Shown one piece after another: positions 1 through 26,740 of a stretch of DNA of 26,740 nucleotides (the first letter of the stretch is position 1; each line of letters starts with the position of its first letter). The DNA is from a virus. The notes under the pieces were generated by a model. That model saw nothing but the letters and a program-made list of their open reading frames with translations. It was not told the DNA's origin and did not search any database. Location: IMG/VR virus record IMGVR_UViG_3300025896_000164, positions 1 to 26,740 of that record; one strand, written 5' to 3'. The translations under genes were made by a program, and so were the position numbers.

Positions 1-78
1 AGACCACTTTCAACAGTTTATAAACAAATACAAAAATTAAAGAAAAAAATTGACCAGATGGTCAAAGAATTAAATTAA
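1..78 (+). CDS. C-terminal end of an unknown protein (partial)
   Basis: The frame is open from the first base and stops at TAA 76-78, giving the last 25 residues, which begin RPLSTVYKQI and end MVKELN. The end is rich in lysine and could be a short helix or coiled coil. Its start lies left of the window. It is followed after 10 bases by the next gene on the same strand, which suggests the same transcription unit. No family can be named from this fragment. Confidence 0.55.
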   Translation, partial: RPLSTVYKQIQKLKKKIDQMVKELN

Positions 79-2547: not shown

Positions 2548-3138
2548 ATGAGCAAAATTCAAATTTATACACTAGATTGCCCAGATGAGAATATACCTAA
2601 ATATGTAGGTGTTACAATAAGAAAATTAGAAACTAGACTTGTTGAGCATATTTATAGTGGAAATAGAAAAGGTAAAAAAAATCTTAAATCTTCTTGGATT
2701 AAAGGCTTATTAAATAAAGGAAAGAAGCCTTTAATAAATTTATTAGATATAGTCGAAGAAAAAGATTGGCAATTTTGGGAACAATATTATATAAGTTTAT
2801 TTAAAAGTTTTGGCTTTAAATTAAAAAACTCAGATGATGGAGGGTATAGACGAATAACTTTTTTTACTTCAGAAGAAACTAAAAAAAAGATATCACTAAA
2901 AATGAAATGTCATCCTTCTTTAAAAAAGAAAAAAGGCCCTATGAGTATATTACATAAAAATAAAATCAAAAAATCATCATTATTAACATTTAAAGAAAAG
3001 TGTAATATAACAGATGAATTAATTAAGCAAATATATATTAATATTGATATAAACGGTTTTAGTATGAGAAAAACAGCAAGAGTTTTAAATTCTACTTATA
3101 ATAGAGTTAGGTCAGTTTATAAATTAAAAAAATATTAA
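2548..3138 (+). CDS. GIY-YIG homing endonuclease with NUMOD3-like tail
   Basis: This 196-residue protein starts with the GIY-YIG nuclease core: IYTL (residues 6-9) and KYVGVT (18-23), then ETRLVEHI with a candidate catalytic Arg30. WEQYYI follows with a candidate Glu78, and the domain ends LKNSDDGG. SEETKKKIS (about 108-116) and the similar basic segment after it match NUMOD3 repeats that bind the minor groove. The C-terminus (TDELIKQIY ... FSMRKTARVLN) looks like a helix-turn-helix. The gene is free-standing, has its own promoter-like motif, and sits between terL and the next structural gene. It is more AT-rich and lysine-rich than its neighbours, as expected for a mobile gene. Such enzymes cut alleles lacking the gene so that it spreads. 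I see no intron boundaries in terL. Confidence 0.85.
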   Translation: MSKIQIYTLDCPDENIPKYVGVTIRKLETRLVEHIYSGNRKGKKNLKSSWIKGLLNKGKKPLINLLDIVEEKDWQFWEQYYISLFKSFGFKLKNSDDGGYRRITFFTSEETKKKISLKMKCHPSLKKKKGPMSILHKNKIKKSSLLTFKEKCNITDELIKQIYINIDINGFSMRKTARVLNSTYNRVRSVYKLKKY

Positions 3139-20778: not shown

Positions 20779-21270
20779 ATGGACCAAATAACTATAAATA
20801 GAATTAAACTTCTTCATCCAAATTTAAGAGATGAAGCAACATCTATTTATAAAGAGATATGTGAAGCATTAAAAGGACGTGCTATTTGCCGTTTTTCTCA
20901 CACTCTGAGGACTTTTAAAGAACAAGATGAGTTATATGCCATTGGAAGAACAAAGCCTGGAAAAATCGTTACAAATGCAAAAGGAGGAGAATCATTTCAT
21001 AACTACGGCCTGGCAATTGATATTGTTCTTTTGGTTGATAAAAATGGAGATGGAAGTTTTGAATCAGCATCTTGGGAAACAAATGTTGATTTTGATGGTG
21101 ATGGATTTAATGATTGGATGGAAGTTGTTAAGATATTTAAGATGTATGGATGGGAATGCGGTATTGATTGGAAATTTAAAGATGCTCCACACTTCCAAAA
21201 AACATTTGGTTATTCAGTTAAACAATTGCAGAAACTTCAACAGGGAGCAAATGCATATGTAAATTTGTGA
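20779..21270 (+). CDS. Endolysin, M15-family peptidase
   Basis: This 163-residue protein shows the M15 (VanY/Ply500-like) zinc site: SFHNYGLAID (72-81, with His74 and Asp81 as ligands) and DAPHF (135-139, third ligand His138). RTFKEQDELYAIGR (44-57) is the usual substrate-side segment. It cleaves peptide cross-links of peptidoglycan, probably at L-Ala-D-Glu or D-Ala ends. Two short acidic loops, DKNGDGSFE (87-95) and DFDGDGFND (104-112), look like EF-hand-type calcium loops; similar inserts are common in Bacteroidota-phage M15 enzymes. No signal peptide is seen, so the holin upstream supplies the exit. It is the last gene of the plus-strand unit. Confidence 0.9.
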   Translation: MDQITINRIKLLHPNLRDEATSIYKEICEALKGRAICRFSHTLRTFKEQDELYAIGRTKPGKIVTNAKGGESFHNYGLAIDIVLLVDKNGDGSFESASWETNVDFDGDGFNDWMEVVKIFKMYGWECGIDWKFKDAPHFQKTFGYSVKQLQKLQQGANAYVNL

Positions 21271-21412
21271 ATTGGGCCTTAAAGGTTTTTGATTCGTATT
21301 TAAATAATACGAACACACAGGTTCGAATCCTGTATGGTCCACAAACGATAACATAGTTGAATTGGAAGAATTTGCTGTAGCAGCATAATCTCCGCAGAAA
21401 AAGAAAAGGCCC
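21271..21412 (+). ncRNA. tmRNA-like RNA: alanine-type tRNA-like fold followed by an ssrA-like tag
   Basis: A tRNA-like fold spans 21274-21341. The acceptor is GGGCCTT (21274-21280) with ATGGTCC (21334-21340), containing a G3-U70 wobble, the alanyl-tRNA synthetase identity pair, and one T-T mismatch. The discriminator is A73 (21341). The D region is short and stemless (AAAGGTTTTTGA), as in tmRNA. An 8-bp stem TTCGTATT/AATACGAA (21293-21313) with a 5-nt loop takes the place of the anticodon arm. The T arm ACAGG-TTCGAAT-CCTGT (21317-21333) is perfect. Directly downstream an ssrA-like tag is encoded (21341-21388). The 5' end AATTGGGCCTT is the exact complement of AAGGCCCAATT at 21406-21416. In known tmRNAs the tag lies inside the fold or in a permuted two-piece order, and neither applies here. 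A degenerate tRNA or tmRNA relic is the main alternative. Confidence 0.5.
21341..21388 (+). other. ssrA-like degradation tag reading frame
   Basis: Codons ACA AAC GAT AAC ... GCT GTA GCA GCA TAA give TNDNIVELEEFAVAA-stop. Known ssrA tags end in ALAA, AVAA or similar; the Caulobacter tag AANDNFAEEFAVAA shares NDN at the start and EEFAVAA at the end. The nucleotide context GGTCCACAAACGATAAC also recalls the tmRNA resume region of E. coli (AGTCGCAAACGACGAAAAC). Such a tail would send a protein to ClpXP. There is no start codon, as expected for a resume frame. The first base is also the discriminator base of the tRNA-like fold. Confidence 0.5.
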
Positions 21413-24161: not shown

Positions 24162-24569
24162 TTATTTAATGTTTTTAAATTTCCACACATATCCATATGC
24201 ACTTTTACTCTTACCATTTAAACATAACGAAATATGGCCAGCTCCCTGTGAACCTTTACCTAAAGCAATTGCTGCCGCATAAATACTTTCATATTCATTA
24301 ACCTTCTCTCCGCTCTTTGAACTTTGAACAATTGCCTTAGCTCCTTCTTTCTTTTGCTTATAGATGACATATGCACCTTTTTTGATATCATTGTACTGTT
24401 TAAACTCTTCAGAGTCAACCAGGGCATCTATAGCCTTAAATGGACCAATTATTTTTGTTTGTTCTCTAAGTATTTCAAATGCCTTGTCCAATTGGAATAA
24501 TGGAAGATAAATTTCTTTTTGAGCTAAGAGAAAGAATAACTCTTTTTTTTGTGTTGCTAAATGTAACAT
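24162..24569 (-). CDS. NUMOD1-like DNA-binding protein without nuclease
   Basis: This 135-residue protein ends with a segment (about 88-133) reading EKVNEYESIYAAAIALGKG, then HISLCLNGKSKSAYGYVWKF. The layout F/Y-x-S-I-x-x-A-A, then a Gly/Ser turn, I-S-x-C-L-N-G-K, and GYxWKF is that of NUMOD1 modules, DNA-binding parts of homing endonucleases. No GIY-YIG, HNH or LAGLIDADG motif is present in the first 85 residues (which hold VIYKQKKEGAKAI). It may be a decayed homing enzyme or a regulator built from such a module. It has its own strong promoter-like element upstream (24589). Confidence 0.7.
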   Translation of the reverse strand: MLHLATQKKELFFLLAQKEIYLPLFQLDKAFEILREQTKIIGPFKAIDALVDSEEFKQYNDIKKGAYVIYKQKKEGAKAIVQSSKSGEKVNEYESIYAAAIALGKGSQGAGHISLCLNGKSKSAYGYVWKFKNIK

Positions 24570-24588: not shown

Positions 24589-24613
24589 TTTATTATAAAT
24601 ATGTACAAATTTT
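24589..24613 (-). promoter_or_regulatory. 25-bp promoter-like element, copy A
   Basis: On the minus strand it reads AAAATTTGTACA followed by TATTTATAATAAA. It differs by only one base from the copy at 25212-25236 and lies about 20 nt before the ATG at 24569 (core to ATG: 33 nt). It is preceded by GTCGAATTTATTT (24622-24634), which also occurs near copy B. Confidence 0.6.
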
Positions 24614-24645: not shown

Positions 24646-25002
24646 TTATTCAGATAAAATTTCTTCTAAGTATTTCGCCATTGGTTTGATTCCTGACTTT
24701 TCAATCTTACCAGCATTAAAACTCATTACCGCCAATTTCAAAGCCTCTAGTCTGTTATTTGGTCTAGAATATCCTCCTGGTTTATAACCGTTCTTATTTG
24801 GCAATTGAATGCGTGTACGACCATCTTTTGACTCAATCTCATATGTGATTGTTTCTCCAACTGAATGAGCAAACTTTTCTGACTTAAAGAATACAGCACC
24901 GTTGTCACCAGATTCGAATTTTACGAATGAATAATTTGTTCCAACAACTTTTGAAGGAGTTGGATTGCTAATGCTTACGATTTTTGATGTTTTTGTTTCC
25001 AT
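24646..25002 (-). CDS. Hypothetical protein (118 residues), possibly nucleic-acid binding
   Basis: The N-terminal 70 residues are a beta-barrel-like run: NYSFVKFESGDNGAVFFKSE, then GETITYEIESKDGRTRIQL, which recalls small OB-type folds. A Gly/Pro/Asn linker (NKNGYKPGGYSRPNNR) leads to a C-terminal helical domain (LEALKLAVMSFNAGKI ... IKPMAKYLEEILSE). This arrangement can be seen in phage DNA-binding or annealing accessory proteins, but I find no specific signature. Codon use has more C and G than its neighbours, suggesting stronger expression. The leader is A-rich (aacaaacataaaaaATG). The gene is followed by the promoter for the NUMOD-type gene. Confidence 0.72.
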   Translation of the reverse strand: METKTSKIVSISNPTPSKVVGTNYSFVKFESGDNGAVFFKSEKFAHSVGETITYEIESKDGRTRIQLPNKNGYKPGGYSRPNNRLEALKLAVMSFNAGKIEKSGIKPMAKYLEEILSE

Positions 25003-25024: not shown

Positions 25025-25201
25025 TTATTTTCCTAATAAGATTGAATTAATATTTGACTCATCTAGTTCATAGCTATACTTCCTGTTTCTTTTTTCGAAG
25101 AAGTTAGCCTTATAAGCTGCAGCTTCTTTTTCAAATTGACTGATATGCTTTGAAGCTTCTAGTCTGGCTTTTGTTTCTGCTGGTGAATTTAGAGTTTTCA
25201 T
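25025..25201 (-). CDS. Small helical protein (58 residues)
   Basis: The start at 25201 (MKTLNSPAETKARLEASKHI) is preferred over an ATG at 25231, since the longer form would lie over the promoter element at 25212-25236 and the leader AAAGAAACAAAAAATG fits 25201. The protein is basic, mostly helical (SQFEKEAAAYKANFFEKRNR), with a C-terminal SNINSILLGK. It is the first gene downstream of promoter copy B and is followed by the 118-residue gene. The function is unknown. Confidence 0.68.
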   Translation of the reverse strand: MKTLNSPAETKARLEASKHISQFEKEAAAYKANFFEKRNRKYSYELDESNINSILLGK

Positions 25202-25211
25202 TTTTTGTTTC

Positions 25212-25236
25212 TTTATTATAAATATGCACAAATTTT
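25212..25236 (-). promoter_or_regulatory. 25-bp promoter-like element, copy B
   Basis: On the minus strand AAAATTTGTGCA followed by TATTTATAATAAA, one base different from copy A (24589-24613). The ATATTTAT core starts 24 nt before the ATG at 25201. Two near-identical 25-mers in front of two unrelated genes strongly suggest a protein binding site such as a promoter. Confidence 0.6.
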
Positions 25237-25279: not shown

Positions 25280-25315
25280 AAATTCGACAAATAAGTTAAA
25301 TCTGTCGATGAATTT
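25280..25315 (-). terminator. Possible terminator hairpin after the polymerase-like gene
   Basis: An inverted repeat aaattcgaca (25280-25289) and tgtcgatgaattt (25303-25315) can pair as CGACA/TGTCG with an outer AAATTC/GAATTT and a bulge. On the minus strand it is followed by TTATTTGTTTTTC. The stem is AT-rich and overlaps the last codons, so termination is uncertain. Confidence 0.35.
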
Positions 25316-26740
25316 ATTTAGCTGTTGTATAAACACCAAATTCTATAACCACTTCATTCATTACCTCAATAACTCTGGCCTTATCACTTTCTGTGCAAAA
25401 TAAAGCATCATATACATAACCAACATATATTTTTTCTTTATTTAAAATCTCAATTACTTCAGTCATTATTTGAACTTCTGTTTTAAACATTTTTTTGCTT
25501 GTTATTTTATGGCCATTTTCTATTTTGTCGTGGTAAATTTCTTCCATCATTTTAGGTTCTTTTTTTGTATAATAATCAAAAAGAGGAGAATAACTCATTT
25601 CTCTCCAATTTTTATTTAAAAAACTTAAATGTTCAACTTTTACTTCTTTAATATCAACTCCTGATTCTTCTGAAACTTTCTTATGTGTTATAAATTTAGT
25701 ATTACCACTATATAATTTAATTGCAATATTTGGGTGTAATGCTGAATAATCACATTCAAAAACTTTCTTACCATCAATCTTAATTAAATTTCTTATCCAA
25801 CTTGGCATTAAAGTGAATGAATCAACTATACGGCATCCAGATTTTTCATCACCAGGTGTTGGAATCATATATCCTCTTTTTGTTAAAAAATCAAATAGTT
25901 CTATATTATCCTCAACAAAACTTCTTTCGCTTATATCATTCCAATACGCATTTGTATGTTTATTTCTAAATGTTAATTTTTTCCCTTTTTTTGTTGTAAA
26001 TTTTTCTTTAATTAATCTCTTTGCCTCTTTTTTAATTTCTTCGTGTGTAGGTAAATCAATTCTAGAGTAAATATCAATTAGATTTTTACAAATAACATTG
26101 TTATTAGCCTCTTTTAGGAGTTTATAGAATGTTTTGTTCCTTTGTTTGATAATTCCTTCGTTTTTTAAATTATAAGTCGTTAAACCAGCTTTAAAATACT
26201 TTTCTGTAATTCTAAACTTCCTACTCTCTACTCCTACTAAATATGAATCTCCTCCTATTTTATTTTTAATTATTTCAATTACAGGACCCTGTTTTTTTGT
26301 TCCTGTTAATAATACACGTTCAATTTTTTTGTATATATAATCATTTTTTGAGTTTCTTGTTTGTTCGTGTAAATAAACTGAATGTAATTTTTTCCATTTA
26401 TTCTCAGTATAATATGTACTAGATAAATTATTTAGAAATAACAAACACTTCTCAATAGCTATATCTAAATCTTTATCAACACATCTTAATAATTCTCTAT
26501 CCATATATCTCTCCAAATCAACCTTTATTTTCTTTGGAATAAGTATTTCTGTAATGTTTGGAAAAAATAGCGGAAATTGTGCAGTAAACTCATCTTCTAT
26601 TTTTTCATTTATTTGGCTTGTAACTGTTGCTGTTACAGCAGTATAACCTATTTCTTTAGTATCTGTTATTAACGGAACATCTATGAAGTAAGATTTAGGT
26701 ATAGAGTTAGAGTTAGAGTTAGATAGTGTATTAGTAATAA
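25314..26740 (-). CDS. Polymerase-like protein related to family A / T7-type enzymes (TV-Pol-like), 5' end outside window
   Basis: The frame is open from the right edge to TAA at 25314, at least 474 residues, and contains no ATG in its first 75 codons, so the start is beyond the window. TTG at 26514-26516 could be read as a start but the coding sequence clearly continues upstream (for example FTAQFPLFFPNITEILIPKK). Near the C-terminus lie two motifs typical of a palm domain. KVFECDYSALHPNIAI, about 145 residues from the end, looks like motif A (Asp in DYS). VGYVYDALFCTESD, about 30 residues from the end, looks like motif C (Asp in YD). Preceding text RIVDSFTLMPSWIRNLIKID fits proteins with '...R..I.IdG..v.E.DYS.LH'. 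This is the pattern described for TV-Pol, relatives of family A DNA and T7-like RNA polymerases in phages and mobile elements. Whether it makes DNA or RNA cannot be told. Confidence 0.65.
   Translation of the reverse strand, partial: ITNTLSNSNSNSIPKSYFIDVPLITDTKEIGYTAVTATVTSQINEKIEDEFTAQFPLFFPNITEILIPKKIKVDLERYMDRELLRCVDKDLDIAIEKCLLFLNNLSSTYYTENKWKKLHSVYLHEQTRNSKNDYIYKKIERVLLTGTKKQGPVIEIIKNKIGGDSYLVGVESRKFRITEKYFKAGLTTYNLKNEGIIKQRNKTFYKLLKEANNNVICKNLIDIYSRIDLPTHEEIKKEAKRLIKEKFTTKKGKKLTFRNKHTNAYWNDISERSFVEDNIELFDFLTKRGYMIPTPGDEKSGCRIVDSFTLMPSWIRNLIKIDGKKVFECDYSALHPNIAIKLYSGNTKFITHKKVSEESGVDIKEVKVEHLSFLNKNWREMSYSPLFDYYTKKEPKMMEEIYHDKIENGHKITSKKMFKTEVQIMTEVIEILNKEKIYVGYVYDALFCTESDKARVIEVMNEVVIEFGVYTTAK

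Follow-up and report, generated by a model that had tools for sequence, protein, structure and literature searches.

In their text description of the TV-Pols, Iyer, Abhiman and Aravind 2008 (PMC2579912) list two conserved palm Asp residues, an RxxxK motif in the fingers, an absolutely conserved Arg on a beta-hairpin before the palm, a bi-helical coiled-coil thumb, the absence of fused or linked nucleases, and linkage to an integrase, a resolvase or a D5 helicase. CCPol-MP, which its authors place in the TV-Pol group, primes DNA de novo, and in the account given by Bebel et al. 2020 CCPol is, to their knowledge, the only TV-Pol that has been studied biochemically (PMC7581432). In CCPol-MP (PMC7581432) and the PolA-SSB primases (PMC10061031), a mobile element encodes an A-family polymerase and, close to it, a small protein of OB type, an arrangement that the phage locus described here, with its candidate OB-like protein, may resemble.

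Genes for both terminase subunits (small and large), a portal, an S78-protease-like protein, a tape measure and an M15 peptidase form a tailed-phage late module on the plus strand of the window, the whole 26,740-nt stretch of DNA from an uncultivated virus that was analysed; the terminase large subunit gene (1252 to 2499) marks the record as a tailed phage. On the minus strand, the polymerase gene occupies positions 25314 to 26738, where a frame open from 26738 down to 25314 encodes 474 residues followed by a normal stop; the true gene start lies outside the window because the frame is cut by the end of the 26,740-base IMG/VR virus record. Three smaller minus-strand genes follow: a 58-aa ORF (25025 to 25201) that matches PHROG 12905, of unknown function, with an E of 0.004 on a longer 68-aa reading; a 118-aa OB-like protein (24646 to 25002); and a 135-aa NUMOD/HNH-homing-type protein (24162 to 24569) with a Pfam match below its cut-off.

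The open frame, the relatives and the predicted structure together support a real gene whose product, as modelled, is a polymerase of the A-family fold (the DNA Pol I / T7 RNA polymerase family). The AlphaFold2 model, built from 20 sequences, has a pLDDT of 82.7 and a pTM of 0.78, with residues 1-59 below pLDDT 50. The original prediction had read two motif A- and C-like strings as signs of a polymerase related to Pol A and T7 RNA polymerase and had proposed a structure search as a check; the predicted fold and the conservation across 36 sequence rows bear this out, and both Foldseek and VIA-align place the model among palm-type polymerases. In particular, the best Foldseek matches in the PDB are the large fragments of Bst, Klenow and Taq DNA Pol I (E from 5.4e-5, TM 0.3-0.4), and VIA-align gives Z 14.2 for yeast mitochondrial RNA polymerase (243 aligned, 4.3 A), 13.8 for Bst Pol I (244 aligned, 4.1 A) and 13.4 for T7 DNA polymerase (245 aligned, 4.4 A), with Z of at least 8 for 243 of 959 chains. 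Since these Z scores tie, the fold does not separate a DNA polymerase from an RNA polymerase. In BFVD, the model best matches (E 1.7e-12) a viral protein that bears the name putative DNA polymerase I.

Within the model, D330 lies on predicted strand 327-331, and D444 sits between strands 440-442 and 445-448, as the catalytic residues of motifs A and C should; predicted helices at 194-211 and 232-244 may correspond to the bi-helical coiled-coil thumb of TV-Pols. No exonuclease domain was recognised in the protein, and an alpha/beta region is predicted at about residues 60-190. The order of its helices and strands suggests a winged helix; searches of the N-terminal region of eight family members against Pfam returned no coherent family.

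Because sequence profiles did not reach Pol I or T7 RNA polymerase, placement in this family depends on fold and motifs. With shallow alignments (Neff about 3; one Pol I row, L096, left out), hhalign compared the family profile with Pol I at E 0.083 and with T7/SP6 RNA polymerase at E 0.89, next to E 0.5 for an unrelated TerL control, and a comparison of the core alone, from which six rows were left out, came no closer to Pol I or T7 RNA polymerase. Pfam DNA_pol_A does not detect the window protein.

Identity to the window protein ranges over about 32-58% in the 36 non-redundant rows, of which the window itself is one, and R303, R316, D330, H335, P336, K367, N375, Y390 and D444 are invariant in all of them, so motifs A and C are more than chance resemblances. 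Along the minus strand, the segment SGCRIVDSFTLMPSWIRN (25788 to 25841) holds R303, the proposed hairpin Arg, and R316; motif A, ECDYSALHPNI (residues 328-338; 25725 to 25757), holds the putative catalytic D330 and places H335 at the position of Pol I Glu710; the fingers motif VDIKEVKVEHLSFLN (25614 to 25658) keeps K367, has Ile in place of the RxxxK Arg, and by spacing places L371 and N375 at the positions of Phe762 and Tyr766; and motif C, YVYDALFC (residues 441-448; 25395 to 25418), holds the putative catalytic D444 and reads [YF]D[AS][LI] across the 36 rows. In contrast, the Pol I rows have DYSQ[IV]E and RxxxKxxxFxxxY, and T7 and SP6 RNA polymerases have DGSCSG and KxxxMxxxY. DNA Pol I and T7 DNA polymerase share the predicted fold (Z about 13-14), whereas the window protein lacks a recognised exonuclease domain and has DYSALH in place of DYSQIE and VYDA in place of VHDE; T7-like and mitochondrial RNA polymerases share the fold equally (Z about 13-14), whereas the window protein has neither the DGSCSG nor the HDSFG of the T7 type and no supported tie to the promoter-like motif ATATTTAT.

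The positions tied to sugar choice in this fold stand out in this comparison. Pol I has Glu/Phe/Tyr there and T7 RNA polymerase Gly/Met/Tyr, whereas the window protein, with the positions placed by motif spacing, has His/Leu/Asn; by sequence they appear to resemble neither model enzyme. N375 stands at what we take to be the third sugar-choice position, held by Tyr766 in Klenow and Tyr639 in T7 RNA polymerase. The positions of Klenow E710 and F762 are tied to sugar choice in the discussion of CCPol (PMC7581432), according to which CCPol keeps the equivalents of both, whereas the family studied here has His (36/36 rows) and Leu (35/36 rows).

Measured against the text description of the TV-Pols (PMC2579912), the window protein is TV-Pol-like and departs from strict membership in two listed features. 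Similar to TV-Pols, it has an A-family core without a nuclease domain, two palm Asp residues, the fingers Lys and a conserved Arg before the palm (R303, on a putative hairpin); its relatives occur in phages and in mobile elements that also encode a tyrosine integrase or a serine recombinase; and a figure legend of that paper names Flavobacteriales and other Bacteroidetes. The TV-Pol label that had been attached to this gene therefore holds for the palm Asp pair, the pre-palm Arg and the fingers Lys, but not for the RxxxK Arg, which is missing in 31 of 36 rows, window included, nor for the separation from nucleases, as some relatives have a GIY-YIG, HNH or exonuclease gene in their vicinity and one relative has a C-terminal HNH_3 domain; no D5 helicase was noticed. 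The Arg was probably lost in this branch, because it is present in five of the 36 rows, in three rows from PHROG 4756 and in a distant relative (L020).

PHROG 4756, a family of unknown function with Aeromonas and Vibrio phage members, is the only match of the direct searches (HMM E 1e-8). Three of its phage members align to the window protein with motifs A and C in register, and a profile comparison links the two families at about 97%, the comparison set also holding L020. Motif A of PHROG 4756 reads DxxxxHP with the His at D+5, a residue common to the three rows and L020; in contrast, identity is about 16-23%, motif C reads HDS (also in L020) where the window protein has YDA, and the RxxxK Arg is present. 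Otherwise, the window protein as a query found nothing credible in Pfam, NCBIfam, the PDB, or phage and plasmid searches, including no match at E 0.01 among 50,697 phage records, where a partial query reached members related to PHROG 4756 at E 0.1-1. In the PDB, partial or profile queries drew only weak, unrelated matches. No relative came from scanning the collections with P0001 or TerL, nor from a first scan of genome contigs, and scans with small alignments returned PHROG 4756 kin or the phage contig L011 again. Pfam, NCBIfam and PHROGs hold no functional name for this polymerase subfamily.

The relatives were reached through a degenerate DNA pattern for motif A, followed by alignment of what it found. 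The pattern led to phage contig L011, whose protein is 37% identical over 427 aligned positions, and to 23 matches in genomes and MAGs, 19 of them with family members; three pattern matches (L014, L015 and L021) were rejected as chance, and L020 was set apart as the distant relative. The 19 copies are mostly from Flavobacteriaceae; Chitinophagaceae, Verrucomicrobiaceae, Bacteroidetes and Rhizobium are each the label of one copy. A search with their alignment then found 12 viral loci, which amount to nine new phage rows, as L078 is L011 again and the pairs L070/L071 and L076/L077 each share one core. Altogether there are 35 distinct relatives, ten in phage records and 25 in genomes or MAGs, mostly Flavobacterium.

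Further, in a sample of 199 genomes centred on the genus of one Flavobacterium, which includes two genomes known beforehand, 17 match and one of these is short and broken, leaving 16 clear relatives at 46-58% identity; in a phylum sample, two of 296 genomes match, both already known and one of them the centre genome. The distribution is patchy and centred on Flavobacterium, and the host of the virus is probably a Flavobacterium-like bacterium. In a quick-method tree of the 36 rows (identical cores removed, nine fragment rows dropped), phage and genome copies are intermixed with at least four label changes and long branches, the deep order being unreliable. The copy in a MAG labelled Rhizobium (L022, 3819-5279, plus strand) sits among Flavobacteriaceae copies, pointing to recent transfer or a binning error. 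The Chitinophagaceae MAG copy (L026, 1374-3608, minus strand) encodes 745 aa with a C-terminal NUMOD4/HNH_3 extension, either a fused homing endonuclease or an insertion. One phage record (G494) may be an integrated prophage, as an ORF at its edge looks UmuC-like by eye.

When the flanks of the phage loci were compared, the portal cluster of the window recurred in four of them (L069, L070, L071 and L072), a different virion-region cluster in L073, and two such clusters in L011; overall, ten phage records besides the window carry the polymerase, and their late genes differ. Several of these place replication genes near it. In G497, the polymerase gene is followed by one for a DnaD-like helicase loader; in L011 and G495, a same-strand exonuclease gene lies 2.8 kb and 5.4 kb from the polymerase, respectively; G495 (46,315 bases) has GroEL, exonuclease and metallophosphoesterase genes; and in G499 (L091, 10007-13708), a record that looks T4-like, a distant polymerase copy precedes a 5'-3' exonuclease and an AAA clamp-loader-like protein whose match to the T4 gp44 lid is sub-threshold. 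The GroEL-type chaperonin of G495 (L081, 734-2389; PHROG 5725, E 1.1e-117) is thereby phage-borne. Across 11 viral records, Pfam DNA_pol_A, DNA_pol_B and DnaB_C each match none, with working controls, an absence of other polymerases that carries little weight, as all 11 records are listed without a completeness figure, most are probably fragments, and DNA_pol_A misses the present polymerase as well; Pfam RNA_pol also matches none of the 11, with its control search equally silent. No helicase was recognised beside the polymerase in the viral records by DnaB_C or by a Walker A scan, the latter a weak search because it missed several terminases.

The replication genes near the polymerase in G497, L011, G495 and G499 support the reading that we favour, with fair though by no means full confidence: the window polymerase would be a TV-Pol-like primase-polymerase that replicates the phage genome, perhaps together with the nearby 118-aa protein. 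Such an enzyme would act as a single chain with an A-family palm, fingers and thumb and no recognised exonuclease domain; D330 and D444 would bind metal and carry out the chemistry, R303 and K367 would hold template and nucleotide, and the N-terminal alpha/beta region may direct the enzyme to DNA. By analogy with CCPol-MP, it may prime de novo and use dNTPs, and the 118-aa OB-like protein may hold the single-stranded template, as MP does for CCPol.

The best model of this candidate ssDNA-binding partner is of low confidence (pLDDT 60.4; the other four models 37-41) and shows five predicted strands followed by two C-terminal helices, with no Foldseek match at E 0.001; its weak structural matches (Z about 5-6) include many OB folds, among them RecO, RPA, PriB, SSB and LEF-3. 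Homologue searches returned nothing significant, and the only possible counterpart, in L077, has a phmmer E of 0.11 in a small set and 33% identity in a two-row alignment. Compared with CCPol-MP and PolA-SSB as described (PMC7581432; PMC10061031), the candidate partner differs in being non-adjacent, encoded by the second gene downstream of the polymerase, in the low confidence of its OB model, and in the lack of a recognised helicase gene in the viral records. A Pol-SSB pair of the type described in PMC10061031 is plausible.

The alternative that survives best, though we consider it rather unlikely, is a polymerase for repair or recombination, or one that belongs to a mobile-element or defence module, rather than a phage replicase. 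It draws on the chromosomal copies, found in 16 of the 199 Flavobacterium-genus genomes, and on the same-strand exonuclease genes in two phages. Ten chromosomal loci of 20 kb each were clustered, with Pfam names taken from one representative per cluster. Common to four of them (L062, L064, L065 and L066) are a tyrosine integrase, which is split in two in L062, a ~114-aa protein, an AAA_24 ATPase, DUF3871, a protein of ~82 aa, the polymerase and a GIY-YIG protein. Three others (L059, L060 and L067) have serine recombinases in common, and by clustering the remaining L061, L063 and L068 have neither; this linkage, tyrosine integrase in four of ten loci and serine recombinase in three of ten, is a feature of the relatives only. 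The chromosomal loci resemble the TV-Pol-carrying integrative elements of Iyer et al. (PMC2579912). The shared module also gives DUF3871 a mobile-element context in Flavobacterium.

Around five of the loci, eight of ten selected large neighbours match PADLOC models for defence, chiefly those of restriction systems. Integrative elements commonly carry defence genes, so these neighbours do not assign the polymerase to defence; moreover, its presence in ten further phage records, whose late genes differ, and the helicase loader that follows it in G497 argue against this reading.

A variant of the primase reading, which we regard as unlikely, is that the enzyme is an A-family primase without the Pol I sugar gate, making RNA or mixed RNA/DNA primers de novo. 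If true, it would be an A-family primase distinct from DnaG, from AEP and from the dNTP-using CCPol-MP, and it would be shared between Flavobacterium-type phages and defence-carrying integrative elements. As the three sugar-choice positions differ from both model enzymes, whether the product is DNA, RNA or a primer becomes a testable question, and a purified enzyme would throw light on the evolution of sugar choice and priming in A-family polymerases, and on the way in which phages and integrative elements that lack a recognised replicase may be copied.

A third alternative, that of a phage single-subunit RNA polymerase of the T7, N4 or mitochondrial type transcribing from ATATTTAT promoters, starts from a motif that is real, as had been claimed: ATATTTAT occurs 26 times in the window on both strands, where 8.07 copies are expected and none of 100 shuffles reaches 26. 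Twelve of the 26 copies lie on the sense strand just 5' of a gene, 4-32 nt from its start, and 10 of 21 gene-start gaps contain the motif (0.23 expected; reached in 0/200 simulations). For example, minus-strand copies precede the first gene after the polymerase (25218 to 25225) and the 135-aa gene (24595 to 24602), and a plus-strand copy (747 to 754) lies 9 nt before a tRNA-Cys gene (764 to 838, anticodon GCA) that overlaps the region just 5' of the terminase small subunit gene. The motif looks transcriptional, since copies precede gene starts as well as a tRNA gene, and the copy before the tRNA gene rules out a purely ribosome-binding signal.

For an RNA polymerase speak the best VIA-align match, which is yeast mitochondrial RNA polymerase in a tie with DNA polymerases; the His in place of the sugar-gate Glu, a residue that T7 RNA polymerase likewise lacks; and a ATATTTAT copy that immediately follows the polymerase gene in three records, namely the window, G492 and G493, the last two of which have the motif in 3 of 18 (0/200 simulations) and 2 of 11 (1/200) gene-start gaps, respectively. 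Nor is the motif confined to these three phages, because the variant TATTTATA is over-represented in G497 (2 of 12 gaps; 3/200 simulations) and ATATTTAT is above chance in the chromosomal locus L065 as a whole (10 copies versus 4.64; 4/200 shuffles), yet in none of its 18 gene-start gaps; TATTTATA also occurs once each in gaps of G491, G494 and G006.

Against this reading, ATATTTAT is nearly absent from the gene-start gaps of other polymerase carriers: 2 of 144 in eight other phage records, 1 of 184 in the ten chromosomal loci, and 0 of 12 in G491, whose polymerase is 54% identical, with no enrichment in L011 (6 versus 4.83 expected). In addition, the fourth gene past the polymerase encodes a sigma-70 factor in L070 and in its near-twin L071/G492, a motif-bearing sister phage (for L070, region 2 matches at E 4e-6, above the cut-off, and region 4 at E 5.7e-4, below it); no sigma factor was recognised in the two G493 proteins tested, and other candidate regulators of sister phages gave weak or no matches. 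ATATTTAT follows the phage lineage better than the polymerase, and because of this and the sigma-70 factor of the sister phage, the promoter link put forward in the original prediction is not supported. A window polymerase that reads ATATTTAT is unlikely, and with the T7-type DGSCSG and HDSFG absent, a phage RNA polymerase of this kind is quite improbable. At the left edge of the window (1 to 78, plus strand), the C-terminus of a contig-cut protein has a helix-turn-helix look by eye, resembling the helix-turn-helix ends of proteins upstream of the terminase genes in some sister phages; some sister phages have HTH- or sigma-like genes at this place, and the cut protein is a candidate ATATTTAT regulator.

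A catalytically dead or structural palm-fold protein, suggested by YDA instead of HDE in motif C, the fingers Arg lost in 31 of 36 rows and the Pol-like proteins without active-site residues mentioned by Rice 2023 (PMC10061031), is very improbable, given that both Asp residues, R303 and the fingers Lys are invariant across rows of such low identity.

Two minor features of the window are also visible. Between the terminase large subunit gene and a structural gene, positions 2548 to 3138 (plus strand) encode a 196-aa protein that looks GIY-YIG-like by eye, with no Pfam match over the cut-off. After the peptidase gene, positions 21270 to 21345 (plus strand), which drew no ARAGORN or Rfam call, hold GGTTCGAATCC followed by GGTCCACA, resembling the 3' half of a tRNA.
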